From the NCBI GenBank assembly GCA_905221605.1, contig CAJNDS010002535.1, positions 1,152,001-1,216,000 on the forward strand: a stretch of 64,000 nt of DNA, in the 5' to 3' direction. The translations under genes were made by a program, and so were the position numbers. This document shows, piece after piece, positions 6,519-45,269 of the stretch. The first letter of the stretch is position 1, and each line of letters starts with the position of its first letter. The notes under the pieces were generated by a model, which was given only the letters and a program-made list of their open reading frames with translations, had not been told where the DNA came from and ran no database searches. The DNA is from Symbiodinium natans. Its lineage: Eukaryota > Sar > Dinophyceae > Suessiales > Symbiodiniaceae.

Positions 6519-6812
6519 TGTGAAGTCGACCAGCACTGGACTTGCACTAAGCCAATGCAATCACAGCCCGGTCACGCTGTTTTACGACTTCGCGAGTTCA
6601 AGCACTTGTGCGGCTACGCCTGAGTGCGTCCGGTCGGACCGCACAGCAACCTAAGAGCTACTGTACGAAACTACCGTGCTCAAAGGCACAAGCTCGGTAC
6701 TTGAGCCAAAACATTGGCATTGTTGCGAATTGCAAAACTACACATGCAAGGGAAAACTACAAGCTGCACTAGCACTAAGCAAGCACTCCATGCATGCTTT
6801 GACCTGCTCACA
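6519..6812 (-). repeat. 3' LTR
   Basis: 294 bp with TGTGA/TCACA ends. It differs from the 5' LTR only at two bases (a G in this copy and an A in the other, within 'tgc[g/a]gctacg' and 'attgtt[g/a]cgaat'). In the element sense it lies after the PLD ORF and is preceded by a purine-rich stretch. It contains a spliced-leader-like sequence and a GTCCG-AC-CGGAC hairpin. Confidence 0.93.
6700..6718 (-). promoter_or_regulatory. Spliced-leader-like sequence in the 3' LTR
   Basis: On the element's sense strand this reads GCCA-ATG-TTTTGGCTCAAG. The 22-nt dinoflagellate spliced leader, as I know it from the literature, ends GCCA-TTTTGGCTCAAG. The last 12 nt match exactly and GCCA matches after a 3-nt insertion. 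The orientation is that of a leader on the element's own transcript. It may be a captured leader or a chance match. Confidence 0.5.
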
Positions 6813-6823: not shown

Positions 6824-7503
6824 GCCGAGGCTTCCGGCTCACCAAGAGCTCATAGTGCGTCAAGCACTTCAGCAACGCGGCAAATGGGGTAGGGCGAGGG
6901 TGTCGCGTGCGACTCTGGTAGAGCCCGCACATCATGAGCATTGGCATGCGGCTTGGGCGACAGCCCGCACTACCAAACGGACGCACGACGACAGCAGCCC
7001 TCAACGACCCTAAACCACCCCAAGTCGCGAGCGCTCACCTTTATGCAGGCAGGCGAGGCTCCAGAGTACTGGGCAGGTCTTTATGCTGCTAGTGCAAAGC
7101 TATGGTACAAATGGTACACTGTACAAACTACCGGCCCTAAGCTACGGCTACGGCTACTCACCTATCCAGAACTACCCTACGGGCTACCGGACTCAGCGAG
7201 AGCCGCGCACATCGCTTGTGCCGCAGCCAGTGCAACTCGCACGCGCTTCGGCGAGCGCACTGCCGCGACCAGGGCACGGTCCGCAGCACCTGCAAAAGAG
7301 CACCCTCGACAAGAGGGGCCACAGGCAGGGCGGAGAAGAAAAGTGCGGGGAATGCAAAATGGGCAGGCTTCCAACCTGCCGCGGCTTTTCGCCCGCAGTC
7401 ACGCAAAAGAAAGTGCAAAAGGTTGGCGAAGCAACGTGCCGTGCTGCGACGCCTGCTCTGATAATGCGTGGATATATACCACGCCGCGCCAACTGGCCGC
7501 AGC
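6824..7503 (-). other. 3' untranslated stretch of the LTR element
   Basis: Between the PLD ORF stop and the 3' LTR are about 680 bp with no long minus-strand frame continuing the element's genes. It holds one copy (7262-7287) of the 25-bp palindromic motif that recurs through the element. The plus-strand frames here are GC-rich shadows. Confidence 0.5.
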
Positions 7504-10500
7504 CTACTCGATACCCTGTGGAGCAGTGTTGGGGGCACGAGTGGCGTTGCCAGCAACGTTGGAGCTACTGGCTCGCTCCAACTGAGGGCGCTTCGCAACC
7601 GCCTCATCGAGGGAGAATGCCTCAGCCGACACCCTCTGGAAATCCTCGACGTAGGACTGCGCGACTGGGTGCGTCTTGGGGACCTCAAGCTTAAGCCCTG
7701 CCTCCGCATTGGCTTTGCTGCTTGTGGTAAAATTGAGGCTCCCAATCAGCACCACCGCGCCGTCAGGCCGCAGTAGGCAAAGGGCCTTGGCATGGTGCAG
7801 CCCTTGAATCCCGGTGCCTACCTTAGCCCCGCGGCCGTCGCGAGCATAGGCGTCGCGCAAGGATGTGCCGCAACCCACCTTCACCTCGGCACCTGCGGCC
7901 GCCAAGCGTTTCAACGCTTGCCACTGAAGCTTGGTGCGGTGGCATTGTCCCATGTCGGCGACAATCCTAACGCTTGCGCCCTTGCCAAGCGACGCTTCGA
8001 TTGCCTCGATGCAGGATGGGCAATCTAAGCTGTAAGCCCGGATGTAGATCACATCCTCTGCTGCTCCGGACCCAAGCAGCGTTTGGGCGGCCTGAATGTA
8101 TGGCCCGCCCGCAAGGAATTCCGCTTCTTTGACTGGAGAACTCCTAGCGGGGGCTGGGCCCTTGTTCCTCCGGCCTGGCGTGCGCGCCACCGTGGCAGTG
8201 GCGGCACGTTGCACGGAGCCGGAATGTGCGTGGGCTGCGCTCGCTCCATCTGCTGGGGCCGCGGCCAGGTCACGACCCGCGAGCCCCTGAAAGCAGGAGA
8301 GCCCGCGGCTCTTGGCCGCGAGTTGGGAGAAACACCCTTCACTGTTCCCCAAACCCAACACCACCTTACCCTTAGCTAGGGCATCGGAGGCGGTACTCCG
8401 AATGGAGTCTGTGAGCGCAGGACCCGCGCCTCGCTGGGCCGCGTGCAAAAACCCTAAGGAACGAGCGGTGTCCATTGCGGCATCGCAATGCCCGCAGCGT
8501 CCTTCTGCCAGGTAAGCACGACAGCCACAGGCAGCTGTCTCCTCCTTGAGATGCACCCAAACTTTATGGGTCACCCCTTTCTTGGTGCTCGCGACTTCAA
8601 ACGTCGCCTCGGAGCCAAGGAGCTGAGACAGCCGCGCCTCAGGGGCCGCGGTGTTGCCATGTCGCAAATGCGCAATGCGATTGGCAACGGCACGACTCAC
8701 GTACCACAGAACAGCACCGCACAAGATCACTACCAGAGTGATGGCTGTTCCGGCGACCCACACGGTCCGCCTGGCCCCATGGCCGATTTCCTCAACAACG
8801 TCGGCCGAAACCGTTGCAACCGCGTGCATGGAGTCCTCGACGACATGCACGACTCCGCGGTGCAACTGCAAGGCAATCGGCGCCGACGCTGCAGCCGCCA
8901 GGCCCCACCAGCCGTTGATGTTCCCGTTGAGGGCGTGCATCAACCGATTGAGGAGCCCGCGACCCAGGAAAAAAGGGGTCCGCGGCGGAAGCGGAACACT
9001 CGGCGGCGGTCGGGCCGACCCGCACGGGAAAGCTGGGACCCAGCTTGTGCTTGGGCGGGGTTGGAGCGCGGCAACAATGCCCGCGGCGAAAGCGCCCCAG
9101 GCGTACTTGCCCCTACCCTTGGGCTTGCCCTTGGCATCGGACTTGCCTCTGCCCTTCGGCTTGCCCTGGCCCTTGCCACGGGCATCTGCCCAAGCACCCC
9201 ACGGGTCGCGGCCCTTGCCGTGCGTCGCCTCCTCGCGACGTCTCTTGCCGCCCCTCTTCTTGTGTTTGCTTCTAAGAAGAGGCTGGATCGTTTCCTGATC
9301 CATCGCGCGATTGGCCAGAAGGATCTCGTACTCCAGCTCATCTTGGCTGCTCTCGGAGCCCGAGTCCCTCTGTTCGCCGCGCCGCGGATCCGGGATCCCG
9401 CGGGACACGACCTCTGCCAAGCGGAGGGGTGTGCTGCACCTAAAGCACAGCTGCCTGAATGAAAGGTTCCATTCATAGCAGTTAGGGCACTGCCACCCTG
9501 CTATGCGGAGCGCTTCGCTGATGTGATCATCGCGCTCCGCCTTCTCCGCCTGGCGCCGCTCCCGCTTCTTGGCGCGCTCGGCCGCCTGCGCCTCCTCGGC
9601 CGCCTGGAGGGCTTCAGCGAGTTCCTCATCGCTGAGGAGCCTCGCGGCATCTGCCCGCGCTTGTTGGTCTTCAAGCTCTTCGGCAGAAAACCTCCGCCGC
9701 CATTGCTCCGGCGCGGTTTGGGGATCCACCTCCCACCACCCGATGTCGATCCCATTGATCCATCGGCCGTCGCACGGGGCGCCCGCATTCGGGCCGCCCG
9801 CGTGCGTGGTGAGGCACTGGTCCTCGGTCACCGGGTTAATGGCTTCGCAGAAGAAGCACCGCCAGCTGCCGTAGGGGTAAAAGCGGCCTTCGACGTAGGC
9901 TCGGTTGGCTGGGAGGGCGACCTCGTCCGCCTCATCCGCGGTGGCAGCCTCCATCTCAACCGAGACCTCTTCGTCCTTGACGACCTCAGCCTCCTCCTCC
10001 TGTTCCTCCTTGAGGGGCTCTTCCTCCTCCCGGCCAACCTTGAGGTGGGACTCAGTGCGAACCTCGGCGCGCATCAAAATGACGTCAAGGCTATCCGCGG
10101 CTGGGTCGCCCGCGAAGAAGGAGTCGATCTCCTTGGCATGGAGATCGTCAAGAGGCGTCACCAGGTCCGGCGAGTAATCTCGCTTGGAGCGACGCTCGGC
10201 CAGGCGTCGCTGGACGTCGCCCTTCGGCGGCTCGAGGGCCCGCCCGCGCGGAGCGGCCTTCCGCGGAGGCTCGGGCACGGCCTCCTCCGTGGGCTCGCTC
10301 TTGGGCGTGGACCCTCCATCGCTTCCCTCTGGAGCACCAGGGGGGTCCAGCTCGGGGTCGTCGCGAAGCCACCCCGGCGGATGGCTACCACCATAGATGT
10401 GGTGCGATCCATCCTCAAGCTGGATTCGGTCCCCTCGCCTCAGGAGCGGGACTCTCGAGTGATCGTACCCGTTGGCTTTGTGGTACCTAATCACTCGGAG

Positions 10501-10689
10501 CATGGGCACCTCCCCATACCCACCGTCCTTTCCTCGGCGGAACAGCCGTCCCCGCCAGTCCTGACGAAAAGGGTCAAGAGGTGCGGAGGGGCTGATCCTC
10601 AGGTTGGGCGGAAGAGAGGCGCCATGGCAGGCCGCCTGATGCAAGTGGTACTGCACCAGCGACTCAAAAGCTAGCCCGCATCCGAACAT
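7504..10689 (-). CDS. RanBP2-finger / transmembrane / SWIM / phospholipase D-like protein
   Basis: 1061 codons from ATG 10687-10689, overlapping the end of the Tpt1 ORF by 19 nt. Visible parts, in order: acidic and Arg/Lys-rich linkers; a CxxC...C finger at residues 276-306; a RanBP2-type finger at 399-418 (WQCPNCYEWN...LCFRC), a fold known to bind single-stranded RNA; a Lys/Gly-rich basic stretch at 470-530; a probable membrane segment at 642-664; a SWIM-type CxC...CxxC cluster at 721-735; and a PLD-family phosphodiesterase at 855-1020. The last has one HKD motif (H966, K968, D976, then GSLNF at 983-987). Single-HKD enzymes normally act as dimers on phosphodiester bonds. Substrate and role in the element are unknown; an RNA or DNA nuclease or end-processing role is inference. 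The domain calls are confident, the biology is not. Confidence 0.75.
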   Translation of the reverse strand: MFGCGLAFESLVQYHLHQAACHGASLPPNLRISPSAPLDPFRQDWRGRLFRRGKDGGYGEVPMLRVIRYHKANGYDHSRVPLLRRGDRIQLEDGSHHIYGGSHPPGWLRDDPELDPPGAPEGSDGGSTPKSEPTEEAVPEPPRKAAPRGRALEPPKGDVQRRLAERRSKRDYSPDLVTPLDDLHAKEIDSFFAGDPAADSLDVILMRAEVRTESHLKVGREEEEPLKEEQEEEAEVVKDEEVSVEMEAATADEADEVALPANRAYVEGRFYPYGSWRCFFCEAINPVTEDQCLTTHAGGPNAGAPCDGRWINGIDIGWWEVDPQTAPEQWRRRFSAEELEDQQARADAARLLSDEELAEALQAAEEAQAAERAKKRERRQAEKAERDDHISEALRIAGWQCPNCYEWNLSFRQLCFRCSTPLRLAEVVSRGIPDPRRGEQRDSGSESSQDELEYEILLANRAMDQETIQPLLRSKHKKRGGKRRREEATHGKGRDPWGAWADARGKGQGKPKGRGKSDAKGKPKGRGKYAWGAFAAGIVAALQPRPSTSWVPAFPCGSARPPPSVPLPPRTPFFLGRGLLNRLMHALNGNINGWWGLAAAASAPIALQLHRGVVHVVEDSMHAVATVSADVVEEIGHGARRTVWVAGTAITLVVILCGAVLWYVSRAVANRIAHLRHGNTAAPEARLSQLLGSEATFEVASTKKGVTHKVWVHLKEETAACGCRAYLAEGRCGHCDAAMDTARSLGFLHAAQRGAGPALTDSIRSTASDALAKGKVVLGLGNSEGCFSQLAAKSRGLSCFQGLAGRDLAAAPADGASAAHAHSGSVQRAATATVARTPGRRNKGPAPARSSPVKEAEFLAGGPYIQAAQTLLGSGAAEDVIYIRAYSLDCPSCIEAIEASLGKGASVRIVADMGQCHRTKLQWQALKRLAAAGAEVKVGCGTSLRDAYARDGRGAKVGTGIQGLHHAKALCLLRPDGAVVLIGSLNFTTSSKANAEAGLKLEVPKTHPVAQSYVEDFQRVSAEAFSLDEAVAKRPQLERASSSNVAGNATRAPNTAPQGIE

Positions 10690-13600
10690 CCGTAGTGGCC
10701 GTCAGCGTTGGGGCGAGGCTCCTCTGAGGCTGAGGCGGACTGGGCAGTCCCGCCTCCCGAAGGCCTGGCGGAAGTGCTCGACCCCGCAGCCCCGGGGGCG
10801 TCCTGACCATCGTCAGACACCTCTTCCCCGTCGGCGCCTTCCCCGGCCGCCCGACTCTCTCCCTCTCGGCGCAGCGTTTTGAGGGACTCCTCACGCTTGG
10901 TGATCTTCTCCAGCTTCACCATCGCAGTTCCCGCAACCTCCAGTATTCTCGACTGGAGCTTCTGCGCTCTAAGAAGAGCTTCGGACCGCGCGAGGTATTC
11001 CTTCGCGCTGGTGACCACAGACTGGCCGAGCACGAGGACTCCTTCCTCTGTGCTCTCGGCCTGGGCCCCACTAGCGGGCTCCTCGTCCTCCTTCACTCTG
11101 ACCGCGGCTGGAGGCGCCCGCGTGTCGGGAAGATCCGAGCTGGAACTATCTTCCTCGACACCTTCAGCTGCTTGGGCTGCCTCTTCCTCGAGCGAGTCCT
11201 CGGGCTCGAGGACATTGGGGCCCGGGATGTTGCGCCTAGGGTACACCTTGGGCTTCGCTGGCACGATCGAAGTCCTAGGAGTCCCTAGGGGACGCCCTTT
11301 GGCCTTAGGCGCGGCCTTAGGAGGGGTAACAGGTTGGGCGGCCCCCGCGGCCATGACACGACCCGCAGGGGCCAGCACAACCGTCGAGGAGCTCGCCGCG
11401 CCACTGCTGGCCGCAGCAGCTTGGGACGCTTGGACCGTGCCCAGTTTCGGTCCTCGCCCCAACGGCGGGTTGGGGCCCGCACTGGAGTCGCCTAAACTCT
11501 TTAGGTCGACACGCAAGACCAACCTATCCACTTCCAACTCAGCTATCAAGTCTGAGTAGACAGGCGAGCCCCTGGGGAGTGCCCAGATGCGGGAAATGCC
11601 GGTGGCCCTAATCTGGCCAGTGAGGGCCACCCCATCCGCTCCTGCATAGATGGGCACTCCGGCGTCCCGCAGGACCGCCAGTCGGACCTCGACTATGCAA
11701 GTCGATCCGCGGCGGAACCCGCGCCTTCCGTCCTCCCACTGCGTGGGGCAGTGTCCTAGGACGTAGTGAACCCCGAGGCGGCCTCCCGGCCCGCCGCCGG
11801 GGATCAGGCCGTTCTGCAACAGGCTTGGCACGACATGCAAGTCCGTGCCGTGCCACATGGCCGGGCCATACTGACGGATGAGGTCGTCGATGGCCGTCTC
11901 ACTTAGGCCCTCCATCATGAACCCCATCGGATGGCCGCAATCGGCAGAGTGGCCTTGGAAGGCACGAAGGAAACCAGCGTGCGAGGTATCCAACCTCGGT
12001 TTCCGCTGGCTGGCGTCGTGCGCGACCGCCTGGTTGTACTGGTTGATGGTGATCCCGAGTTGCTCGATCAACTCATCAACCGGGTAGAGGCCGCCCGGAC
12101 CGAACCGGCCTCTGCAGCCACCTTCGCCGTGCCGCATGCATCGGACTAGCAGGCGCTGCACGTCGTCTATCGTGGGCGGGCCCTTCCGGCCCTTAGGGCC
12201 TGGGCTCTTGCTTTTGCCCCTGCCCTTAGACCCTCCTCCACCCATCGCGGCACTGAGGCCCGCGGCTTTGCTGGACCTCCGATGGGCGAGGGAAACCTGA
12301 CACGCCCTTGAGCGGCCAGGACACGGCCCGCTGCAAGGGGCCGGTGTGCAGTAGTGGTAGGCAGCCGCTCCCGCGCGGCCAGGGCACGGCCCGCAGCGGG
12401 GCCTTGTGGTTGACCACGAAGGTCCGGGCGACCGGTCGGTCGCTCCCGCGCGGTCTGGTCGCGACCCGCAGCGGGGCGCAGTGCACAGGCACGAACGCGG
12501 GGAGGGACTACCTACCCTAGGCTCTACAACACACTTGAACCGCTGCGGCGGGGGGTTGGGGAGTTTCTTTAAGGTCGGGGCTTTAGGGCTTCTACGGCTT
12601 CTGCTTCGACCTTGGACCGAACCTCTAGGCCTGCTTCCTAAACACTGGCTGCGAGACAAACGAACGAAGCTGCACGCGACGAACGACGAAAAATCCTTCT
12701 GCCCGCAGACCGGCGACCTGGGAAACGGCCCGCCCCAAAAACACCCGCCCTGAACACAGAAACACCCGAACAGCCCCAACATCCTGAGCATCAGAACGCG
12801 CGTGGGGTGATTCTGGTCCGAGCGCGCCGCGTCATGGTTCGCGCGCTTGGAGTTGTGCGCACCGCGAACGCCTAAGGCTTCAAGAGCAGACGACGCGCTC
12901 TGAGGAGCCGCGACTGCCCCCTTGGCGCACGCTTCGCGCACCGCCCCCTCGGCTTGGGCATCAGTGAAAAACTGCCCATCAATGACCCTACCCGTCCTAA
13001 CAGTAAGATCATCCACGTAGGCAATCCACTCCTTAGTATACTTAAGGCGCCTACCTCTGCCGGGGGCATAGGCCCTATCAACCACAAAGTTGAAATCATC
13101 TGGGCCGTTAATCGGGCCAAAGGTGAGGCCGACAGGGAGATATTTCCCTGATCTTGCCACAATGGCCAACACCTCGCGAGCACGCTTGGTGTTCCTAATC
13201 TGATTAAACCCACTAACCGCATCCACGAAGGTATACCAAACCGAACCTACTGCGGCGGCGAGCACATCGCTGCCCCGCCGACAATAGTACGTGGAGCGCT
13301 TAATTCGGGCATTCACGCGGCGGTAGTCAACCACCAAGCGTCGCTTCCTATGCCGCTTGTAGCTGGGCATTTCCTTGGTCGGAAACGGCGCAGATCCCCA
13401 AGCCGAGCTGCCGCGGATCAACTGACCCCGCTTGCATTCTTCTTCAAGCTTGTCGTCGACCCATTGCGCGGACTCGCCCCTCAGACTGTGAGGCTGGGAC
13501 GAGACCGGCGGCCCGGTGGGGATGCAGTCATGGGCGAACTTCCTGACCGTGGTCCTGGTGGTGTCCTCCACCCAGAACCCAGCGGCCTTTCGCCGTATGA

Positions 13601-13823
13601 CCTCCCTGACGGCTGCGATATCAGCATCGGTCAGCCCGGGTCTGGTTGGTCCAGGCTCGATCTTCAAACCCGACCATACGAGGTCTCTATAGGCCTCGGT
13701 GCGCCTAGGATCCTCCGCGACCTTCTCGCCCGCAAGAGCATAGACCTCAAGGTCAGCCCGGACGGAATCCCAGTCCTTGGCGTCCGCCTTGGTCCGCCAA
13801 AACGCTTCCCTTCTCCGCGGCAT
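10671..13823 (-). CDS. RT fingers/palm - linker - Tpt1-like ORF
   Basis: The open frame runs 13967 to 10671. The first useful ATG is 13821-13823, and sequence upstream of it overlaps the integrase ORF end. Using frame numbering from 13967, residues 165-345 are Ty3-type RT fingers and palm (LVVDYRRVN at 211, FVDAVSGFNQI at 247, YVDD at 317). No thumb follows. Residues about 385-574 are GC-rich, contain three copies of a palindromic motif and look like spacer. ATG 12243-12245 (Met575) could start a separate protein: a basic Gly/Lys/Arg leader, the Tpt1-like domain (600-800), then Pro/Ala/Glu-rich tail and a coiled coil (986-1040). The +1 step from the upstream ORF suggests a frameshifted polyprotein. 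The order RT-palm after integrase is anomalous. Confidence 0.8.
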   Translation of the reverse strand: MPRRREAFWRTKADAKDWDSVRADLEVYALAGEKVAEDPRRTEAYRDLVWSGLKIEPGPTRPGLTDADIAAVREVIRRKAAGFWVEDTTRTTVRKFAHDCIPTGPPVSSQPHSLRGESAQWVDDKLEEECKRGQLIRGSSAWGSAPFPTKEMPSYKRHRKRRLVVDYRRVNARIKRSTYYCRRGSDVLAAAVGSVWYTFVDAVSGFNQIRNTKRAREVLAIVARSGKYLPVGLTFGPINGPDDFNFVVDRAYAPGRGRRLKYTKEWIAYVDDLTVRTGRVIDGQFFTDAQAEGAVREACAKGAVAAPQSASSALEALGVRGAHNSKRANHDAARSDQNHPTRVLMLRMLGLFGCFCVQGGCFWGGPFPRSPVCGQKDFSSFVACSFVRLSRSQCLGSRPRGSVQGRSRSRRSPKAPTLKKLPNPPPQRFKCVVEPRVGSPSPRSCLCTAPRCGSRPDRAGATDRSPGPSWSTTRPRCGPCPGRAGAAAYHYCTPAPCSGPCPGRSRACQVSLAHRRSSKAAGLSAAMGGGGSKGRGKSKSPGPKGRKGPPTIDDVQRLLVRCMRHGEGGCRGRFGPGGLYPVDELIEQLGITINQYNQAVAHDASQRKPRLDTSHAGFLRAFQGHSADCGHPMGFMMEGLSETAIDDLIRQYGPAMWHGTDLHVVPSLLQNGLIPGGGPGGRLGVHYVLGHCPTQWEDGRRGFRRGSTCIVEVRLAVLRDAGVPIYAGADGVALTGQIRATGISRIWALPRGSPVYSDLIAELEVDRLVLRVDLKSLGDSSAGPNPPLGRGPKLGTVQASQAAAASSGAASSSTVVLAPAGRVMAAGAAQPVTPPKAAPKAKGRPLGTPRTSIVPAKPKVYPRRNIPGPNVLEPEDSLEEEAAQAAEGVEEDSSSSDLPDTRAPPAAVRVKEDEEPASGAQAESTEEGVLVLGQSVVTSAKEYLARSEALLRAQKLQSRILEVAGTAMVKLEKITKREESLKTLRREGESRAAGEGADGEEVSDDGQDAPGAAGSSTSARPSGGGTAQSASASEEPRPNADGHYGCSDAG
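11570..12245 (-). CDS. Tpt1/KptA-like RNA 2'-phosphotransferase domain
   Basis: Coordinates cover Met575 to about residue 800 of the long frame. Tpt1/KptA enzymes use NAD+ to remove an internal RNA 2'-phosphate, classically after tRNA splicing, through an ADP-ribosyl-RNA intermediate. The family signatures are all visible in order: RCMRHG (Arg612-His613), LRAFQGHS (Arg668, Gln671-Gly-His-Ser), WHGT at 705, GVHYVLG at 732, GFRRGS (Arg752/753), and a GADGVALTG version of the usual NGV-LT segment at 777. The four residues expected to be catalytic (R, H, R, R) are therefore present. A related ADP-ribosyltransferase activity on nucleic-acid ends is an alternative. Its presence inside a retrotransposon is the notable point. 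Confidence 0.8.
12310..12472 (-). repeat. Cluster of a 25-bp palindromic motif repeated through the LTR element
   Basis: Plus-strand consensus core GCGGCCAGGNCACGRCCCGC. Three copies lie here (12310-12334, 12372-12397, 12445-12472). Others are at 7262-7287, 8258-8283, 11344-11369, 18233-18258, 19866-19893, 22330-22352 and 23385-23407. All ten have the same orientation, and the arms (GCGG/CCGC) can pair. They fall in different reading frames and in spacers, so selection is on nucleic acid rather than protein. I saw none outside the element. Function unknown. Confidence 0.7.
12935..13475 (-). other. RT fingers/palm domain, 3' of integrase
   Basis: The motif order is that of a Ty3/gypsy polymerase: an entry segment with EEECKRGQLIRGSSAWGSAP, the VDYR finger motif, the first catalytic Asp in FVDA, the LTFGP-type motif and the YVDD box at 13008-13019. 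The polymerase thumb and connection that should follow are missing here and lie about 5.5 kb upstream in the element, before the integrase. Confidence 0.85.
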
Positions 13824-16800
13824 ACTTATCCACCTCCTTATCCAGCTCCGCACGCTCTGCTGGCGTGAGGTCCTCGCCCGACCGCACGTCCGGGAGGGGA
13901 ACGACTGGAGAGGGCTGTGGCGCAGCCGCGGCGCTATCTGCACCCGCAGTGGCTGGAAAGCTTTCAACTGCAGCGGTGCACAGCTCTTCTGCGCCCCTCA
14001 GACCAAGGTCCTGGAGCGAGGCGCAGAAAGCCGCCCCTATGAGGTTGTAGTCGGATTGCGCGCGCTCAACGTGCTTGTGCTGCGCTGCGCCTAGCGCATC
14101 CGGCCTACTACACCTCAACCCTACCGATTCTAAGCTGAAATCGGCGAGCCACAGGGCCCCGCTCTCAACGAGGTTGCTGCGGCCGCTGGCCCGCGCGAAC
14201 TGGCACATGTCAGCCCGCACGAAAGCCCAAGGCCAGCGTGGCTCAGCGAGCGTCCCAAACAAGGCGCCCCACTCCTCTAGCCGCCAAGGTTCCCACTCGC
14301 CTTTTTGCGCCTGCAAACGCAGCGCGACGTGGGCGCCCGCGCGTGTGCGTTCCTGCGCACACCGGACGACTAGCTGGAGGAAAGCCCGGGGCACATTCTT
14401 GCCCTCAAGCCCAATTACGAGCACCTTCGGCTCTGTGCGCAGAACAGCGCCGCTAATGGCCTCCAAGTGCTCTTCTGCGGCCAGGTTCCAGGTGATCCCG
14501 TAGGCCTGCTTGCCTTGCACAAAAGCGGGAACAACCCTGTACCCGTGCCTCCTAGCCGCGTCGGAAACGACCGCGTCACCCCAAGCAACCTCTAAGACAT
14601 CAGCAACCCCACCAAGGAAATACTGCCGGAACCAACTCTCGACAGCACCCGACTCTGGGGAAGCCCTAGGTTGCAACGCGCGGGGTTCCGCGACCAGGAG
14701 GTCCGCGAGGGCCTCTCGGATCGAGAGCACACTCGTGCCGGCACGAGACGCTCGCTCGAGGGTCCTGTCCTGCAACGAATACGCCCCCTTGTCCAACTTT
14801 CTGGCCGAGGCTGCAGCAAGCACGCCGTCGCGGTTTAGGTCGATTTTGGAAATGATTTCCTTCACAGAAACCGCTTCATGGGCCGGACGGGTCCCTTCTG
14901 AAAGCGTGAGCGCTCCGTCCTCGGCGATATATGCAAGCCGCCATTTGACCCGAACCCCGCTGGCGTCGGGGAGATAGCGATGGACGCCGACCTGCGCACG
15001 GGCCGCATCCACCTGCGTGACCCGTCCTAACCTGCACACCTTCGGGCCTCCACCTACGCCCCGATAGGCAATGCGGTCGCCAAGGCGGAGGACGAAGTCC
15101 CTCCCGCGCCTGGTCAGCGTGAACTCCACCTGCTTGGCGTCGCCTTGAACCTGTTGCCCTAAGCTGGGGCGAGACGAGCCGTCCCCGCCGGTTTCATCGT
15201 CTTCAAAGACGACCGGCTCGCGGGATTCCGCGCCATCTGCATCCGCAGGAACAAGAATGCAGTCTTCTGCGTGCGCCTCCATCGGGCCGCGCCGGGCGGA
15301 AGAAGTACCCCCCGACTCCATCGACACGGGCTCCAAGGTGAGCCTGTGGCCCTTGACTTCCAACACGCGCCAGGGGCCGGTCAGACCCGGTTTCCAAGGC
15401 ACACGCCCCGCCCCCTCTGAACGGGCCCTCGGAGCGTTCCAGACCACTCGGTCGCCTGGTTTAAGGTCCACAGTGCGCCTATGACGGTTTGCAAGTTTCG
15501 CCCGCGCTTCTGAAGACCGCGTCCAGTGCTCTCGGACCGCAGCAGCTAGCTCCGAGAACTGTTTGAACTGGCTCCGAGCCCAATCAGAGATGGGTTCAAA
15601 CTGCAAGGCGTCTCGCAGGACGTCCTTTTCAAGTGGTAGAGCGAGCGACCAGCTCCGCTCTAGGTCCCTCGGGGTATACCCGTGGGGTCCCGGAGTGTTG
15701 TCTATGACGTACTCCGCCACCACGAGCCAATCCGACCAAGCTTCGGAAAGGGAGGCGCCGACTTGTCTGACGACCGCCCCCAGCACCTTTTGAACTTCTT
15801 GGTGGACTCGCTCGTTTGCGCCCAACTCACAAGGCCTCAAGGGCGCGCTGAACCGCCACTCGGTCCCAAGCATAGCGCTGAGTTCTGCCATGAGCGCGTT
15901 CTTGAACTCTGGCCCTCTGTCCGACCTGATGAGGCTCGGGATCGTCCTGCTGCGAAGCACACAGCGCACGAACGCCCTCCTGACTTCCGCATGAGTCAGA
16001 GACCTCATAGGCTCGAGGAGGACAGCATGACTGAGGCAATCAAAGTACGTAAGCGAGTACCTATGCCCCTCCCTGTCCTCTCGGTTCGGACCCTCACAGT
16101 CCACGCTGACTTCCTGCCAGCAAGTCTCGGCGCCACACTTGACCGCACGAGCTTCAACCTTCGTCGGTCGAGAGCGGCCTTTAATGCAGGCGAGACACTT
16201 GGCGACCCAGGTCCGCACATCTTTCTCCAAATCGGGCCACCAGACTGCCCTCTCCAACAGTTTGATGGTAACCTCGGCAGACCTATGGGCCCCAAGGACT
16301 CCACAGTGGACTGAATTGTAACAGGCGCGGCGCCAGGTCACCCCGTTCGCGCCCGCAGCCCCGTTGGGAACCACTGGGACGACGACGGTTTGACCCGTCC
16401 TGAGGGTCACCTCGCGCTCCAGCAACCCGTCTCCGGACATCACCATCGGCGGCTCCGGCTTGCGAATCGACCCCGCCAATGAGGGATCGCGCCGCTGACC
16501 CTCGTACCACGCCGTACGAAGGGATCCCGTGACTCGGAACTCCGAAATGTTCGCCGCGTCCCTCGCCTCGACCGCAAGCTGTTCGCGACGATTTTCGTCC
16601 TCCCCCGCGGCCAGGCTCAAAGACGGAACTCCGCCCTTAAACTCGACCTTGACCTTGGTTGAGGAATGGTCCCAAATGCACAGGATGGGGCTATGGCTGA
16701 CGAGCTCCAGAACCACAGCAGGGCCCTTGTGCTCCTCACCCATAAACGCCAAAACTCTACCCTTCAGCTTGCACTCATTGGCATTCTTCCCGCGACTGAT

Positions 16801-19710
16801 AGCGCCCGCGGTCCAATGCCCTTCTACGCCCTCATTGGACGCAGAGAATAGAGCAAGGACCCTTGACGCCTGCCGGGTAGAACTGCGGGGATCCGAGGCT
16901 TCTCCGGTTGCCCGCCAGCCAATGACCTGAGTAACCCTACCCCAAAGGGCTATCAGCTTGCCGAAGGAGGGGTCTAAGGCAACCTCTTTGCCCTTAGACC
17001 TCCAGAGCACTTCGCACTGCTCATTCACGACATGTCTGTGGCCGTGCCAGTTCACCACTGACGACCAATGCACGACGATGTCGCCCTGAACCGCATCCAG
17101 GGGCGAGCAGTTGTGCCCCGCCACCACAGCACCATCTTCTCTAACCACCCATGTGGTCCAGTAAGGCTTCACATCGCCCCACTTGGAAAGATCCTTGTGC
17201 TGGGAGCCGAGGCTGAGCTTCATGGAATGGCCCTTCTTCCATATCTTCCCACTCAGCATGCCATATGCTGTGGGAACTGGAGCATCCTTGGGCGTAGTCC
17301 TGAACCCTACCGCCCATTGCTGGATGGTTGAGGACCTAACCCTAAACAAGCCTCCTGTCCTATCCAAGGTCGCAAGGACGGAGTTGACCTCTAGGCCCAC
17401 CTCATGGGCCTCAAGGTCGCCCTCAAGCGGAGGTTCGAGCTCCTCCCGCTCGGCTATCTCCACCGAGGTATCGACCGCCTCTTTCTCGATGCAGGCGGGG
17501 CAGCGAGAAAACAGGTAGGTCCGCTTGCCGCAGATGCATAGACCCTCGTGGTCCCAGAGGGGTCGCGACGGTTCGTCCAGCATCCCTCTAATGCTGGCAT
17601 CATCGATGGAACGAACCGCGTCCAGCCTCAAGGACCGCAGAACCTCCGCCCCCAATGCCTGCTTCCCTACGATCCCAAAACCTCGCAGGGGAGGCTCCGG
17701 AAAATCCTTCTTGAGTTCCGGACAAGCCTCGGCCACTTCCAAGTGGCCTTGCTGCGTGCGCCAAAGGCGTGGCCGCACCGCCCAGATAGCCTTGATACCT
17801 GCCCAAGCCTCTCCTACAGCCCTAGCTTCTTTGCGCTGCAGGTTCCTTGCTTGGAGCGTGAGCTCAACAACCAAAGGCCACCTAAGGACGGCTGTGACCA
17901 GCCCGCCTTGTCCAAGTCCTACAAGGAACTGCGGACGAAACCCCGAAGCTTCCCTAAGAACCTTGGCACACGAAGTGAGCAAGTCGACCCTGATCCGCTT
18001 GATCTTCTTGGTCCCTGCGAGCCTGCCGGCCCCGCAATCAAAATGCGAGGCAAGCCCGTCGGTATCCTCAAACGGACCCCAACAACCCCTGACAGCCACA
18101 GAAACTCCAGGGAGGCTCGCTTGGAAAACGCGCCTGATCTCAGTCAGCTCTGCGTCCTGCTCTTTCCAACGCGCGTAGTCAAATACAACCATGACGCGCA
18201 CCGGAAGGGCTGCGACGACGCACATCGGCACAGCCGCGGCCTGGACACGGCCCGCAGGCTCTGGGACGGCGTCGTTGCCGACCGCCCAGGGCACTGGTCC
18301 GTCACCCTCAGTACCCTCTCCGAGGTACTGGTCCAGGTCGAATCCTCGGAGTTGGCCCGAAAGGCCCTCGAGGTCTTTCGTCCTCGCCGCAAGGAGCGCA
18401 TCCCGATCCTTGGGATTGCGGCTAAAACTGTCACCCAGCGTCGCTGAGCGACCGCTAAGGCTCCTTATTTCAGACCCATCCATAAGGATTTCTGCAACCC
18501 ACCGGACGAGCTTCGGATCCATTCCGATGTCCGATGTTTGCGCTCGGGTAAGGTTGGCATGATCTGTCCAACACAGAGTCCGAATAGAGCCAAACATGCG
18601 GCGTGTCGCCCGCTTTACCTCGAGCTGGGCAAACGCCTCCTGTATCAAGGGCGGCCAGTTCTGCTGCGCGGGGGTCAAGCTCTTCGAGTGCGTCATAAGC
18701 ACTTTGAGCTGACTCAAGTCACGCGTCATCTGCACGACGCTGCCCCCTACCGCGATGCCCGACGCATCCGCGATCTGCTCAAGGGGACACGACCCATCCG
18801 CAGCAGAGGCCTCATCGAAGGTAGCCAAATTGATGCGGTTCTGCATCATGCGCTTAATCGCTTTAAAGGCTTTGCAACCCTCGGTGGCGGCTGAGCCCAG
18901 CCCGCCTTCAGGAAAGACGGCGCCTGGCTTCTGCCACTGCCCTAAAATCTTGGCTGCGTGCCCATACTCAACAGGCAGGTAGCCGCGCAACCAGTTTGCG
19001 CAACCCAAAAATTGCTGAATGTGAAGCTTCTCCCAGAGCGGGGGAAAGTCAATCACCGCCTGACAACGCTCTTCGTCAGGCGAACTCCCGCCCCGCCCAA
19101 TGTTGTGTCCCAGGAGCTTGCCTTTGGAGACACAAACTTCGGCCTTGCTGATTCCAAAGGAGAACCCAAACAAGATTGACTTATCTAGGAAACCCTCTAA
19201 GGAAACGAGGTGGTCGAGGAGGTGCGGGCACGCTTTAGGGTGCCGGGCGCGCATATCTGCCGCGAGCTTCTCATAATAGTAGTCCGTTGGAGGCTCTTCG
19301 ATCATCTTCTCGATGTCCCAGCTCTCCACGATATGATAGCTCGGGCAGCGCGCCGTATCGACCGCGTCTGCTGGGCGAACAGCGTCACTTGCGCCTCTCC
19401 CAGCAGTGGCCGATCCTTCACGCCAGCCAGCCCAGCGTGGCCCCTTGCGCGTCCTAAAAACCGCGAGGCGTTCGGTGACGGGAACTTCATCGCTACACGC
19501 AACGCTTTCCGCCACACGTAAATCCCTCGTGTCCCAGAGACGCCACGCCTCACCCACGCGCTGAAGCAAGCACGTTTCGTAAGGCGCCTTCTCGACCGCC
19601 AGGGTCCCAAGGTCCTGCTGCGCAGGGCGCCTACCCCACACAGACGCGTAACCACCTGGCGCCTCCCACCAGTTGTCGACGCTTGGAAGGTGGTCCAAGC
19701 AAGAAAGCAC
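13753..19710 (-). CDS. RT thumb - RNase H - Ty3-type integrase - methyltransferase-like ORF
   Basis: 1985 codons. Residues 145-245 resemble the Ty3 RT thumb/connection (AEVCVSKGKLLGHNIG, HIQQFLGCANWLRGYLP), but no polymerase palm precedes them. Residues 290-430 form an RNase H with all four acidic positions (D315 in ADASG, E358, D383 in CWTDHANL, D427 in GDSFSRN). The integrase has its zinc domain (H1135, H1142, C1172, C1175), catalytic D1204, D1264 and E1300 with exactly 35 residues between the last two, and a GPY/F-type tail near 1440-1462 (KPGLTGPWRVLEVKGHRLTL). Residues 450-1050 between RNase H and integrase are unassigned; a GLGQGG loop at 599 is visible. Residues 1700-1900 resemble a degenerate methyltransferase-like domain seen after the integrase in other dinoflagellate elements (PKVLVIG, FVRADMCQF), with its usual PPC lost. 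The C-terminus runs into the RT ORF with a +1 change of frame. Confidence 0.85.
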   Translation of the reverse strand: MLSCLDHLPSVDNWWEAPGGYASVWGRRPAQQDLGTLAVEKAPYETCLLQRVGEAWRLWDTRDLRVAESVACSDEVPVTERLAVFRTRKGPRWAGWREGSATAGRGASDAVRPADAVDTARCPSYHIVESWDIEKMIEEPPTDYYYEKLAADMRARHPKACPHLLDHLVSLEGFLDKSILFGFSFGISKAEVCVSKGKLLGHNIGRGGSSPDEERCQAVIDFPPLWEKLHIQQFLGCANWLRGYLPVEYGHAAKILGQWQKPGAVFPEGGLGSAATEGCKAFKAIKRMMQNRINLATFDEASAADGSCPLEQIADASGIAVGGSVVQMTRDLSQLKVLMTHSKSLTPAQQNWPPLIQEAFAQLEVKRATRRMFGSIRTLCWTDHANLTRAQTSDIGMDPKLVRWVAEILMDGSEIRSLSGRSATLGDSFSRNPKDRDALLAARTKDLEGLSGQLRGFDLDQYLGEGTEGDGPVPWAVGNDAVPEPAGRVQAAAVPMCVVAALPVRVMVVFDYARWKEQDAELTEIRRVFQASLPGVSVAVRGCWGPFEDTDGLASHFDCGAGRLAGTKKIKRIRVDLLTSCAKVLREASGFRPQFLVGLGQGGLVTAVLRWPLVVELTLQARNLQRKEARAVGEAWAGIKAIWAVRPRLWRTQQGHLEVAEACPELKKDFPEPPLRGFGIVGKQALGAEVLRSLRLDAVRSIDDASIRGMLDEPSRPLWDHEGLCICGKRTYLFSRCPACIEKEAVDTSVEIAEREELEPPLEGDLEAHEVGLEVNSVLATLDRTGGLFRVRSSTIQQWAVGFRTTPKDAPVPTAYGMLSGKIWKKGHSMKLSLGSQHKDLSKWGDVKPYWTTWVVREDGAVVAGHNCSPLDAVQGDIVVHWSSVVNWHGHRHVVNEQCEVLWRSKGKEVALDPSFGKLIALWGRVTQVIGWRATGEASDPRSSTRQASRVLALFSASNEGVEGHWTAGAISRGKNANECKLKGRVLAFMGEEHKGPAVVLELVSHSPILCIWDHSSTKVKVEFKGGVPSLSLAAGEDENRREQLAVEARDAANISEFRVTGSLRTAWYEGQRRDPSLAGSIRKPEPPMVMSGDGLLEREVTLRTGQTVVVPVVPNGAAGANGVTWRRACYNSVHCGVLGAHRSAEVTIKLLERAVWWPDLEKDVRTWVAKCLACIKGRSRPTKVEARAVKCGAETCWQEVSVDCEGPNREDREGHRYSLTYFDCLSHAVLLEPMRSLTHAEVRRAFVRCVLRSRTIPSLIRSDRGPEFKNALMAELSAMLGTEWRFSAPLRPCELGANERVHQEVQKVLGAVVRQVGASLSEAWSDWLVVAEYVIDNTPGPHGYTPRDLERSWSLALPLEKDVLRDALQFEPISDWARSQFKQFSELAAAVREHWTRSSEARAKLANRHRRTVDLKPGDRVVWNAPRARSEGAGRVPWKPGLTGPWRVLEVKGHRLTLEPVSMESGGTSSARRGPMEAHAEDCILVPADADGAESREPVVFEDDETGGDGSSRPSLGQQVQGDAKQVEFTLTRRGRDFVLRLGDRIAYRGVGGGPKVCRLGRVTQVDAARAQVGVHRYLPDASGVRVKWRLAYIAEDGALTLSEGTRPAHEAVSVKEIISKIDLNRDGVLAAASARKLDKGAYSLQDRTLERASRAGTSVLSIREALADLLVAEPRALQPRASPESGAVESWFRQYFLGGVADVLEVAWGDAVVSDAARRHGYRVVPAFVQGKQAYGITWNLAAEEHLEAISGAVLRTEPKVLVIGLEGKNVPRAFLQLVVRCAQERTRAGAHVALRLQAQKGEWEPWRLEEWGALFGTLAEPRWPWAFVRADMCQFARASGRSNLVESGALWLADFSLESVGLRCSRPDALGAAQHKHVERAQSDYNLIGAAFCASLQDLGLRGAEELCTAAVESFPATAGADSAAAAPQPSPVVPLPDVRSGEDLTPAERAELDKEVDKYAAEKGSVLADQGGRQGLGFRPG

Positions 19711-19720
19711 TCCAGGCTCC

Positions 19721-20752
19721 TCAACAGGGCGCCCAACTGGGCCGCTCCCGCCACACCGAAGCGAGAACAGTCACCGCAGCAAGGACCGATAGCACACCGA
19801 TCCTGGCGCCGGTACGCAGCCGCCCAAAGGACCGCGCACACGAGGAACAACCTTGGAAGCTTCTTGCCGCGGCCCTGGACGCGGACCCGCAAGCAAAGCA
19901 CGGGTCGTGGTCAACCGAGGCAACGGCGACCCCACAATCCGCACATGCCTGCGGAGACGGCTCCGACTCGAACACCGTCTCAACCGCGCCACAACCACAG
20001 GCCGCAGTGCTAACGAGGCCGGAACGCACTTCCGCAACAACCTCGCCCGGCTGGAGAGAGTGATCGCACTCTTGGGCTGCGAGCAACACAAACCCCTTTC
20101 CCTCTCCTGTGGGCCAAAGGCCTGGTACGGCCTCGACCCCGCACTCCACCGGAAGCACTACCTCGGACAGGGATCCCTCTGCGGAGACTCCTTGCTCCCG
20201 CACGACAGGCACCAGCACCCCGTCGCCTGGCGAGAGCTCGAGAGGCTCTTCCCCGTCGTAGCGGAGGAGCTCCCGACTTCCGCCCCCAGGCTCGGTGCAT
20301 GACGCGTCGTCCAGGCTCGACAACCGCGCCTCGAAGGCGTAGGCCCTGTCCTTCCGGGTCTTGCTGTGATCCTCGCACCTGGGCATTCTGATTCCCAGCG
20401 TGTCGAGGACGTGAAAGTCGGGACCCGGCCTGAAGCCCAGGCCCATCCTTCCGGCGCAGTCCAACGCTCTGCCGCCGAGGATCAGTCCGTGCCAATCGGA
20501 CGTTCCCCTAGCTGCGATTTTGCATCGCACGAAAATTTCAGTGTTGGGGCGACAGTCGTCCGCCGTCCTGCCTTCCAGCAGCGTGACGCGCAAGACTGCT
20601 GCCCCCTTCAGAGGAACGGGGGCTCCCGAAGCAATGCCATGCACATATTCGGGGTGGACCCGCTTCTCGAGTCTCACGACCGGGAAGCCGGGATCTTCGG
20701 TACCGATCCCCAGCTCTGCAGCCCGGTTCATCATGCCCACCACAAGTTCCTG
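19721..20752 (-). pseudogene. Retropepsin-like protease remnant and cysteine-cluster region
   Basis: The open frame extends upstream to 21106, but only from about 20752 does it resemble protein: ELVVGMMNRAAELG continues the Gag-end reading in the -1 frame. The segment keeps the flap-like GIASGAPVPLKGAAVL and the LILGGRALD motif near the C-terminus of retropepsins. The expected N-terminal catalytic D-S/T-G turn is absent: Gag ends YRTVVQVLD and the next recognisable residues are already past the active site. A small deletion plus frame change therefore seems to have removed it. The C-terminal part has four CxC/CxxC pairs (roughly residues 390-440 of the frame) and a hydrophobic end, possibly a zinc ribbon plus membrane segment. 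Probably not an active protease in this copy. Confidence 0.6.
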
Positions 20753-23298
20753 TCGAGCACCTGGACTACCGTTCTGTACTGGTAGCCTCCTGGCTCGTTG
20801 TCCGCCAGGTTCCACCAGTCCTTCGGCAGATCGTCCAGGGTGGCGAACTTGTCCCGCCCACCCTTGCCCAACGGAAGCGCGTGCTGCTGCACCGCGGCGC
20901 GTCCTGCGGCTCCTGAGACGCCTGCCTGGACGCCTGAGCTGCCTATCTGGACGCTGAACGCGGCGAAGGGGTTGGACATGGAAGCCCCGGAGGGCGCGGC
21001 CCAGTTGGCAGGCAAGGCCGGCGTCCCTCCTGAGGTCGTCAGGTTGTGGACCATGTCGCAGCTGGCTCCTTTCTTGCACGACCCATTCTTGGAGAAAAAG
21101 GGGCAAACAGTGCCTGGTGGCTTTGCCGCGCCTTTGGCCGCAGCCTTAGGCTTAGCGCTGGCCTTTGCCTTGCCACCTCCCTTCCCTTTGCCCTTGCCTT
21201 TCGCCGTGGCAAAGGTTTGGTCACCCTTCTTAGCCGCGAGAGCTTTTCTGCGAAGCTCCTTGTCGTGGCTGAACGGGCAGGCATCCCCTTTCGGGCAATT
21301 CCCGTGGTCGCGAAAGTGGAAGCAGATCTTCTTGTCCGCCCCCTTGCCAGCTCCCTTCGACGCAGCGGCAAACGTCTGATCCGCGCCAGCCTTGGCCGCG
21401 GCAGCTGCTCCCTTCGCAGCGGCCTTAGCGGCGGCCTTGAGGCTCCGAATCTCCTTCTGAGCCTCGGCTAGCGCGACCGACGGGTCCGCGCTTGGAGAGC
21501 CGGTCGTGGAGTACACAGAGTGGGAAACAGCACGGTGCGCTGCTTCCCTCTGTTCGTACTCCAAGACGACCTTGTGGCTCTCCTCCCAAGTCTGCGGCCC
21601 TCTCAGCCCGCCATCCTTGGGATCGCCGGGCCACAACCGCTTGTCGTTACGTATCTCCTTTTGGAGATACGGGGGCATCTTGCGGAGGTACGAGAGATAC
21701 AACTCTCGTGGGGTCTTCCCAAGACCCACCGCCTCAAGGTCCGCGATCGATGCCTCAAACAAAGGCTCGAATTGGTGGCCTGTGAGCTTGCCCTTAGCGA
21801 GGGAGGCATGCTCACCATCCACGCGGACTTCTCTTTCCTCCCGCGATTCCCCGAACATCAAGTGCTTGTTCTTGATGCGGTCGTACACCGCCTGTGGGTC
21901 GGAGAGAACCTCTCCCGACTTCCACGCTGCGCGGTAGGCGTTCGTGTACGTCTTCATGCGCGAGCCGCGGCAGCGCCCGCGTAGCGCTAGCAGCTTCTCG
22001 CGCGCACTCATACCGCGACAGTTGTTGGCGAGCGCGCAGACGTCCTCGAACTCCTCGTAGAACAGGACAACGTCTCGCGCGTCCGCCTTGTCGTCGGTCA
22101 GCGTCGGCCACGTGAGGTCAGTTTTGACCGTCGTTATGGAGCTTTGCCCGCCCCTCTGCGCTAACGCTTCTTTCAGCGCTTCAGTTTGGGCGGCGAGTGC
22201 GGCGGCGAAATCGCCCGCCGGGTTTTGGGACCCGGTCTGCGAACCTCCGCCGTCTGAACCTCGCTTCAGGGCTTCTATCTCCATCTCCAGCGCCGCGAGC
22301 TTTGCGCGCAAAGGGGAATCGCCGTCCGTCGCGCCCAGGTCACGGGCCGCGGAAGGACCACCTGCAACCTCGGCAGTGTGCAAACCTCCACGGTCCAAAC
22401 CTACCCCCAACCCACTTGCAGTCGCAGGCTGTGGGAGCCCTGGGGAACGCGGCCCCACGGCTTCAACTGGCACATCGGACGGGGAGCTCCAAACCTTCTC
22501 TTGGCTCGAGCTTTCTTTTCCCCCTAGCGCGAGGATAAGCTCCCCGATGCATTGGATTTCACGCTGAATCTCCTCTGCGTCTTCGGGGTCCTCGCCACCG
22601 CGCAAAGCCGCGACCGAGAACCTGGTCCGCAGCCGACGGACCATCTTTGTCGGATGCCAGTTCCCGCCTATCTTCGAGAACTCATCCGCAAGGAGGGTGG
22701 CTTTGGTGCTCAAGGCGTCGAGGTCACGGGAGCTCACCGTGACTCCATGCGCTTTGAGCGCGAGGACAATCCGCGAAACGCGCGTCAAGTAGTCCGCGAC
22801 CGGTTCCTGGTCTGGACGGAAAATCGCGCGCAGCTCCGCCTGTAAGCCCTCTGCGGTGCCTGGCACTGAACCTGCTGTCGACGGCGGACCGGACGGCCCC
22901 GCCGGGCGGGACCCTGGTGCCGTAGCAGGGACATAGGCAGCACCGGTAGGGACCATGGCCAGCTCCCTTGCCGCGGCGCCGACATCCACCCGCGGCGGAC
23001 TGTCGCCTCCAGCGCCCGAGGCCTCAGGGACTAGCTCGGAGTCCTCTTCTTCTTCCTCTTCCTCCTCGTCCTCGCCTTCGGCGTCGTGGAGGAACTTCAT
23101 GACCTTTCGCCAGAGAGCCGCCTCCTGCTCTGGCGTTGTGCTAACCCCATCCCGCTTGGACAACGGACGACTGCCGGTCTCCCTACGCCACTTAAGCCAA
23201 GCGACGTAGCTCATCCGCTCGGGATAGGGAACGTCGCCACCCTCGATCGCTTCGAGGAGGGTGACGCCCTCGGCCTGACCTGCAACCTCTGCGGACAT
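20731..23298 (-). CDS. Gag-like protein with two CCCH zinc fingers
   Basis: Start chosen at ATG 23296-23298, because the extra upstream codons only translate a tandem repeat. 855 residues: an acidic Glu run at 73-88; a long Ala/Gly/Pro-rich part; a helical capsid-like region around 370-580 (FYEEFEDVCAL, GHQFEPLFEASIADLEAVGL, LRKMPPYLQKEI) of the kind found in Ty3-type Gag; then a Lys/Ala/Gly-rich tail with two CCCH fingers, C-x8-C-x5-C-x3-H, at 659-678 and 732-751. CCCH fingers here replace the usual CCHC knuckle and presumably package the RNA. Ends TGA at 20731-20733, where the protease reading continues in the -1 frame. Intact and long; Gag identity is by position and composition. Confidence 0.8.
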   Translation of the reverse strand: MSAEVAGQAEGVTLLEAIEGGDVPYPERMSYVAWLKWRRETGSRPLSKRDGVSTTPEQEAALWRKVMKFLHDAEGEDEEEEEEEEDSELVPEASGAGGDSPPRVDVGAAARELAMVPTGAAYVPATAPGSRPAGPSGPPSTAGSVPGTAEGLQAELRAIFRPDQEPVADYLTRVSRIVLALKAHGVTVSSRDLDALSTKATLLADEFSKIGGNWHPTKMVRRLRTRFSVAALRGGEDPEDAEEIQREIQCIGELILALGGKESSSQEKVWSSPSDVPVEAVGPRSPGLPQPATASGLGVGLDRGGLHTAEVAGGPSAARDLGATDGDSPLRAKLAALEMEIEALKRGSDGGGSQTGSQNPAGDFAAALAAQTEALKEALAQRGGQSSITTVKTDLTWPTLTDDKADARDVVLFYEEFEDVCALANNCRGMSAREKLLALRGRCRGSRMKTYTNAYRAAWKSGEVLSDPQAVYDRIKNKHLMFGESREEREVRVDGEHASLAKGKLTGHQFEPLFEASIADLEAVGLGKTPRELYLSYLRKMPPYLQKEIRNDKRLWPGDPKDGGLRGPQTWEESHKVVLEYEQREAAHRAVSHSVYSTTGSPSADPSVALAEAQKEIRSLKAAAKAAAKGAAAAAKAGADQTFAAASKGAGKGADKKICFHFRDHGNCPKGDACPFSHDKELRRKALAAKKGDQTFATAKGKGKGKGGGKAKASAKPKAAAKGAAKPPGTVCPFFSKNGSCKKGASCDMVHNLTTSGGTPALPANWAAPSGASMSNPFAAFSVQIGSSGVQAGVSGAAGRAAVQQHALPLGKGGRDKFATLDDLPKDWWNLADNEPGGYQYRTVVQVLDRNLWWA

Positions 23299-23378
23299 CG
23301 CCGCGCCTTGGTTAGCAGGCCGCAGGCGTGGCACACGAAGCGCCGCGCCTTGGTTAACAGGCCGCAAGCGTGGCACAC
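23299..23378 (-). repeat. Two-copy ~40-bp tandem repeat before gag
   Basis: The unit 'cgccgcgccttggttarcag' plus 'gccgcargcgtggcacac' occurs twice (23299-23339 and 23340-23378) with one or two differences. It lies in the leader just ahead of the gag start and next to a copy (23385-23407) of the element's palindromic motif. Confidence 0.7.
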
Positions 23379-23463
23379 AGTCCACGCGTCCAGGTCACGG
23401 ACCGCGACAGACAAGCAAAGCAATGCTTGCCCACTCGGGCCGTAGGCACAAGAGCTGTACCTT

Positions 23464-23479: not shown

Positions 23480-23481
23480 AT

Positions 23482-23775
23482 TGTGAAGTCGACCAGCACT
23501 GGACTTGCACTAAGCCAATGCAATCACAGCCCGGTCACGCTGTTTTACGACTTCGCGAGTTCAAGCACTTGTGCAGCTACGCCTGAGTGCGTCCGGTCGG
23601 ACCGCACAGCAACCTAAGAGCTACTGTACGAAACTACCGTGCTCAAAGGCACAAGCTCGGTACTTGAGCCAAAACATTGGCATTGTTACGAATTGCAAAA
23701 CTACACATGCAAGGGAAAACTACAAGCTGCACTAGCACTAAGCAAGCACTCCATGCATGCTTTGACCTGCTCACA
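23482..23775 (-). repeat. 5' LTR
   Basis: 294 bp, collinear with the 3' LTR without indels. Its outer edge (TCACA on the plus strand) directly abuts the TAC microsatellite. By position it should hold the promoter for the element. Confidence 0.93.
23663..23681 (-). promoter_or_regulatory. Spliced-leader-like sequence in the 5' LTR
   Basis: Identical to the copy in the 3' LTR: GCCA, a 3-nt insert, then TTTTGGCTCAAG on the sense strand, about 95-113 nt into the LTR. If transcription starts near here, the RNA would begin with leader-like sequence. Confidence 0.5.
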
Positions 23776-45261: not shown

Positions 45262-45269
45262 TTTGCACC

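Follow-up and report, generated by a model that had tools for sequence, protein, structure and literature searches.

A Tpt1/KptA RNA 2'-phosphotransferase-family domain in an LTR element of Symbiodinium natans

Enzymes of the Tpt1 family remove 2'-phosphates at rejoined RNA junctions, and the question raised by this locus is what such an enzyme would do inside an LTR retrotransposon. The window, i.e. the whole stretch of 64,000 nucleotides of Symbiodinium natans DNA analyzed here, had been read in a first-pass annotation as containing a Tpt1/KptA-like gene at 11570..12245, in a long intact frame within a 17-kb LTR retrotransposon. For enzymes of this family a natural role beyond tRNA splicing is still being sought, and a Tpt1 encoded by a retroelement would offer one. 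Moreover, the accessory enzymes of retroelements show what hosts do to these elements.

Identity and conservation of the Tpt1 domain

The minus strand of window positions 12245-11570 encodes a domain of the Tpt1/KptA RNA 2'-phosphotransferase family, as had been proposed. It is an open frame of 225 amino acids (AA) within a 1098-AA ORF (10671-13967, minus strand), and the Pfam profile PTS_2-RNA (PF01885) matches it at 11619..12158 on the same strand with 40.2 bits against a cut-off of 26 (E 4.8e-10; profile positions 7-175 of 177). The score for the narrower NCBIfam equivalog is 30.3 bits, below the cut-off of 239. A phmmer search of the PDB with the single domain gave no match, and solved Tpt1s were reached only with a profile built from seven element domains, which matched 13 distinct sequences at E <= 0.01, every one of them named as an RNA or tRNA 2'-phosphotransferase, with 6e3a as the best solved match (E 3.1e-11).

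The structure prediction that the first-pass annotation had called for points the same way. The predicted model (mean pLDDT 73.6) contains a winged-helix RNA lobe and an ADP-ribosyltransferase lobe, and all 21 PDB fold matches at E <= 0.001 are Tpt1/KptA structures; in the structural matches, the window's domain shares 19-25 % identity with the solved members. A close fit to solved structures is obtained for single lobes but not for both together (2.0 Å over 70 and 2.5 Å over 92 residues), and the mutual placement of the lobes is unsure, with pLDDT values below 50 at model residues 129-136, around the third tetrad arginine. A chance or misread motif is ruled out by the Pfam match, the profile matches to solved Tpt1s and the fold matches. 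The domain is like Tpt1, KptA and TRPT1 (PF01885) in its profile, two-lobed fold, R-H-R-R tetrad and K-x-R motif, and it differs from them in being a domain of a retroelement polyprotein, with a predicted activity.

The tetrad positions were assigned by aligning the domain with the enzyme of PMC6333775 and correspond to R38, H39, R84 (within K-x-R) and R156 of the protein starting at 12245. Within the signature order pointed out in the first-pass annotation, the arginine of R-x-x-QGHS (R94) marks the family but lies outside the tetrad. The tetrad has been described as essential for Tpt1 activity (PMC6333775), and any single tetrad mutation in TRPT1 is reported to abolish 5'-phosphate ADP-ribosylation of RNA (PMC6582358). 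Searching the genome with the window's domain yielded 356 candidates, and no stop was found inside the match in 147 of the 150 best-scoring places that were scored. A loss of R/H/R/R from most copies had been considered beforehand as grounds for rejection; the full tetrad is present in all 28 DNA copies examined (24 distinct Tpt1 sequences), a sample of the 8 best-scoring copies, including the window's own, and 20 chosen copies mostly with long open frames, which is biased against decayed copies by this choice. Among protein rows, the tetrad is intact in nine of the ten covering all four positions, P0065 being the exception, and tyrosine replaces the histidine beside the third tetrad arginine in 6 of 26 rows.

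Selection on the copies was estimated as pN/pS by uncorrected codon counting, with ranges from a codon bootstrap. The value for Tpt1 is 0.158 (0.088-0.263; n = 28), that for the reverse transcriptase (RT) palm 0.046 (0.011-0.110; n = 24), that for the linker between RT palm and Tpt1 0.492 (0.246-0.992; n = 23) and that for the region after Tpt1 0.342 (0.247-0.480; n = 25), where the upper end of the Tpt1 range and the lower end of the linker range touch. For the palm, the linker and the region after Tpt1, 4, 5 and 3 copies were omitted, of which 3, 4 and 2 had a coverage below 90 % and one each had no match. Judging by tetrad, fold and constraint, the domain is probably an enzyme.

The surrounding LTR element and its relatives

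The 17-kb LTR element was confirmed. It spans 6519-23775 on the minus strand (17,257 bp) and is bounded by direct repeats of 294 bp with TG...CA ends, the 5' LTR at 23482..23775 and the 3' LTR at 6519..6812 (both minus strand), which differ at 2 of 294 positions. The 5-mers flanking the element differ, so that no target-site duplication was seen by eye at this one copy, and the 5' LTR adjoins a TAG microsatellite. No tRNA could be assigned as primer to the site following the 5' LTR, and ARAGORN found no tRNA within the window.

From 5' to 3', the element comprises a gag-like CCCH region, a region at the place of the protease, RT thumb with RNase H, the integrase, an extended conserved region, the fingers/palm part of the RT with YVDD, Tpt1, C2H2-, RanBP2- and SWIM-like zinc motifs, and a PLD-like domain, all on the minus strand. 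The gag-like ORF (20731..23385, 884 AA) holds two CCCH zinc-finger stretches (Pfam zf-CCCH, E 3.3e-7). It is followed by an ORF of 461 AA (19721..21106) at the protease place, which includes a stretch conserved in relatives and in which Pfam gave no significant match for a protease. RT thumb/connection and RNase H lie at 18409..19347 (RT_RNaseH, E 6.9e-9; profile A3), the integrase with its H2C2 zinc-binding part and rve core at 15832..16332 (Pfam E 3.3e-10 and 6.7e-8), and RT fingers/palm at 12798..13754 (RVT_1, E 8.1e-7, with 29.4 bits marginally below the cut-off of 29.6; profile A2). The 3' ORF (7504..10689) contains a C2H2-like, two RanBP2-like and a SWIM-like Cys/His motif and, last before the 3' LTR, the PLD-like domain (7633..8061; PLDc_2, E 2.1e-9). 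Only PLDc_2 reached Pfam significance in this ORF and the remaining zinc motifs were read by eye; in the relative P0041, Zn_ribbon_RanBP matches with E 1.5e-7. In an alignment read by eye, the PLD-like domain keeps HxK and GSxN, and the aspartate of HxKxxxxD is off its usual place. The 3' ORF (minus strand) also shows, by eye, a hydrophobic stretch before the SWIM-like motif, a possible membrane anchor for the PLD-like domain.

The element is Ty3-related, judging by its LTRs, its gag-like ORF and an RT, RNase H and integrase that are closest to Ty3 among solved structures. The order RT-RNase H-integrase of a standard Ty3 element is not found. The long intact frame reported for the locus applies to Tpt1, whose frame is open; in the window's copy, the frame of the polyprotein is interrupted at two places, near 13.8 kb and near 10.7 kb. 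The gene models P0008 and P0009 read through both breaks and P0010 through the second, and frames of up to 5,309 AA surround Tpt1 in other copies.

The relatives of the element are gene models, unlike the window. Those with an organism name (P0040, P0044, P0045 and P0047) are all from Durusdinium trenchii, and scans of IMG/VR gave no relatives. The RT palm precedes Tpt1 in all nine relatives holding both. In the divergent elements P0022, P0032, P0041 and P0047, Tpt1 is 30-35 % identical to that of the window. The identities of RT and Tpt1 drop in parallel (85/47, 69/35 and 67/30 %), and distances rising together are as expected for a joint descent of Tpt1 with the element. One relative, P0042, has the RT palm and the PLD-like domain and no Tpt1 match, so Tpt1 is not indispensable; in the gene models P0011 and P0012 it is truncated. 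In P0040 (2784 AA), the SWIM/PLD end of one element is followed by gag and RNase H from another, which may reflect elements arranged in tandem or the fusion of gene models.

Tpt1 beside other retroelements and its proposed role

The 759-Mb assembly (2,543 contigs) was also searched with PF01885. The best 150 of 474 candidates were scored, all 150 lie above the family cut-off, and they form several score groups from 182 bits down. Surroundings were viewed at 11 representatives of the 150 scored places, which stand for groups that were not classified copy by copy, and retroelement domains were found with six of them. Three encode in one frame with Tpt1 a LINE-type endonuclease and RVT_1, namely C345 (E 5e-8 and 7.7e-20, with UCH slightly below its cut-off), C891 (7.3e-6 and 5e-20, with C2H2 and a terminal UCH at 6.1e-9) and C2444 (1e-10 and 1e-20); at C1889, a separate Tpt1 ORF of 656 AA is followed by an endonuclease ORF. 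Among these LINE-type stretches (L040/L041, L043/L044, L045/L046 and L042), Tpt1 precedes endonuclease and RT at C345, C891 and C2444. The copia-type stretches (L047/L048 and L049/L050) are C2410, with RVT_2 (5.3e-9) in one frame with Tpt1 and a CCCH gag-like ORF upstream, and C1557, where RVT_2 (3.4e-5, below cut-off) shares a frame with a weak Tpt1 match (45.2 bits). At C92, C2202, C778 and C1899, the scanned ORFs showed no retroelement domain, and the stretch of C2098 has no ORF of at least 250 AA. The complete tetrad is present at 9 of the 11 representatives; C1557 is without some tetrad residues and C2098 without the RH part, and at C2410 a glycine is, by eye, inserted between the tetrad arginine and histidine.

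The best PF01885 score of the genome belongs to C92 (L037, 4769-5737, minus strand), a Tpt1 ORF of 323 AA (E 3.8e-53) and a possible host gene. In an IQ-TREE phylogeny of 28 rows, seven Ty3-related Tpt1 domains form one clade (100/99) apart from C92, and the two copia-type domains form another (100/99). The LINE-type Tpt1s fall on separate branches of this tree, in which the deep forks are not fixed and several rows are long. As far as these sequences go, the simplest reading would be a repeated uptake of Tpt1 by retroelements, and there may have been old exchange of Tpt1 between elements. The C92 ORF might also suggest that the window holds a host Tpt1 gene with elements inserted in or beside it by chance. 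This extremely improbable explanation is ruled out by the LTRs enclosing Tpt1, the constant order of RT palm and Tpt1 in the relatives, the at least 150 scored matches in the genome, and the Ty3-related clade.

For the activity, substrate, place of action and benefit of the element's Tpt1, we infer the following. With a probability of roughly 55 %, the domain would be an active, NAD+-dependent ADP-ribosyltransferase of the Tpt1/KptA type that works on RNA ends or junctions of the element or on its primer. Kept for long in the 3' polyprotein of a Ty3-related element, it would act on this RNA, or on the primer, inside the element's particle, either stripping 2'-phosphates where cleaved RNA was rejoined or ADP-ribosylating 5'-phosphate ends. 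RNA treated in this way would stay usable for reverse transcription, or escape degradation or recognition. That a host response which cleaves RNA is evaded in this way, as suggested in the first-pass annotation, is a possibility. The zinc fingers would serve to bind the RNA, and the PLD-like domain may trim or cut it. The action is placed at the RNA intermediate because this stage is common to the three retroelement classes. A role there is more likely than hitch-hiking because the pN/pS of Tpt1 is lower than that of linkers and because Tpt1 also neighbours LINE- and copia-type RTs. The occurrence of Tpt1 in these elements suggests that, in this genome, their RNA copies depend on a repair or masking of ends or junctions. 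In yeast, a 2'-phosphate has been reported to inhibit Xrn1 (PMC6456296), so its removal or retention would alter the fate of the RNA. A block of reverse transcription by the 2'-phosphate was set aside as the benefit, since for yeast HAC1 a longer primer-extension product extending past the 2'-phosphorylated junction is described (PMC6456296).

The removal of 2'-phosphates is preferred over end capping as a first choice. The reverse, that the main function is to cap or tag element RNA or cDNA by ADP-ribosylating 5'-phosphate ends, is possible yet rather unlikely. PLD-type nucleases leave 5'-phosphates, and a PLD-like domain is encoded in the same element, in line with such a function. TRPT1 and KptA are also reported to ADP-ribosylate 5'-phosphate ends in vitro, for which the same tetrad is required (PMC6582358). 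However, because both reactions use one tetrad, sequence cannot tell them apart, and Pfam matches in the element ORFs did not include an ADP-ribose hydrolase (macro domain). A little less probable still is that Tpt1 targets host RNAs or defence signals instead of element RNA, for example by repairing cut host tRNAs. The KptA of phages and RNA viruses has been suggested to undo tRNA cleavage or to act in RNA-end processing (PMC9503650), but the location in one frame with RT, and in LINE-type elements with endonuclease and RT, points to the replication complex without being decisive. That the domain was captured as a non-catalytic one, retained for winged-helix RNA binding only or as a relic, is improbable: the relative without a Tpt1 match and the incomplete tetrad of C1557 would agree with it, but the tetrad is kept at 30-35 % identity and the pN/pS is 0.16.

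Tpt1 domains on selfish elements have been described in viruses, namely in polyproteins of Beihai picorna-like virus and a Botrylloides nidovirus, in Bodo saltans virus and in sawfly baculoviruses (PMC9503650), and several viral KptA domains are among the fold matches of the window's Tpt1 model. Those carriers are viruses, whereas the carriers here are retroelements; in the main text of that source, the words retrotransposon and retroelement do not occur. Other enzymes are known from retroelements. A giant 25 kb Gypsy-type LTR element of orchids has fixed an AlkB m6A RNA demethylase (PMC9289625), which likewise is an RNA-modifying enzyme in a giant LTR element and differs from Tpt1. LINE and DIRS elements of Symbiodinium carry DNMTs (PMC5890265), and bdelloid LTR elements carry ORFs for a GDSL esterase or a DEDDy exonuclease (PMC5408684), so that accessory enzymes occur in several retroelement classes there too, but not Tpt1. 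Among the matches listed in a search of the openly licensed PMC literature, none reports a Tpt1/KptA domain carried by a retroelement. That retroelements of three classes carry Tpt1 in a single genome points to RNA ends with 2'- or 5'-phosphates as a battleground of retroelements, a link so far proposed for some viruses and phages.

Arrangement of the reverse transcriptase

The reverse TRANSCRIPTASE in the window's family consists of two pieces, with thumb and RNase H before the integrase and fingers/palm after it. The break lies just after YVDD, and the pieces are ~1,550 AA apart in reversed order. The palm profile A2 matches residues 108-198 of the Ty3 RT 4ol8 (E 4.8e-4), tied among the PDB matches with the caulimovirus-type RT 8r0s, and the thumb/RNase H profile A3 matches residues 248-475 of 4ol8 (E 1.4e-7). 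Unlike in Ty3, the two pieces are apart and reversed here, and the family departs from the standard Ty3/gypsy order, in which contiguous RT and RNase H are followed by the integrase.

The palm follows the integrase in all 10 relatives with both (P0017, P0019, P0022, P0025, P0027, P0032, P0033, P0041, P0042 and P0044), and in none of 18 relatives does a palm match lie between the protease region and the thumb. By Pfam, P0019 and P0022 show this order and P0041 has the integrase before RVT_1, with RVT_1 scores below cut-off. In the controls P0048 and P0051, the two RT pieces are 4 and 2 residues apart and the integrase follows, and in the controls P0050 and P0052 the integrase is followed by a contiguous RT-RNase H. 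A complete RT upstream of RNase H was considered and rejected, as no RVT_1 was found in six further ORFs and four other element ORFs; among the element ORFs scanned, only the ORF 10671-13967 has it. Both pieces have been kept, because each is 65-85 % identical to that of the window across the aligned relatives. The predicted structure of the palm has a mean pLDDT of 43.5.

The order of Pol domains is reported to differ between two types of SymbioDIRS-Dnmt3 (PMC5890265), and the accessible parts of the sources on the DNMT and GDSL/DEDDy elements describe no RT cut in two. None of the matches listed from the openly licensed PMC literature describes an LTR element whose RT is split. If functional, the split and permuted RT would show that two widely separated coding pieces can together yield an RT able to replicate the element. 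A tentative proposal, which may well prove wrong, combines both parts of this study: in dinoflagellate-type genomes, a strong host RNA reaction, i.e. cleavage with rejoining or the marking of ends, would have driven the separate uptake of Tpt1 by LINE-type, copia-type and Ty3-related elements, and the Ty3-related RT would be made as two pieces, circularly permuted around the integrase, that reassemble.

Elsewhere in the window, a second LTR-like pair of 214 bp and 100 % identity (45048-55996) surrounds minus-strand ORFs, which contain a partial RVT_1 below its cut-off. The left copy of this pair is flanked by a direct repeat of 279 bp (44714-44992 and 45270-45548).
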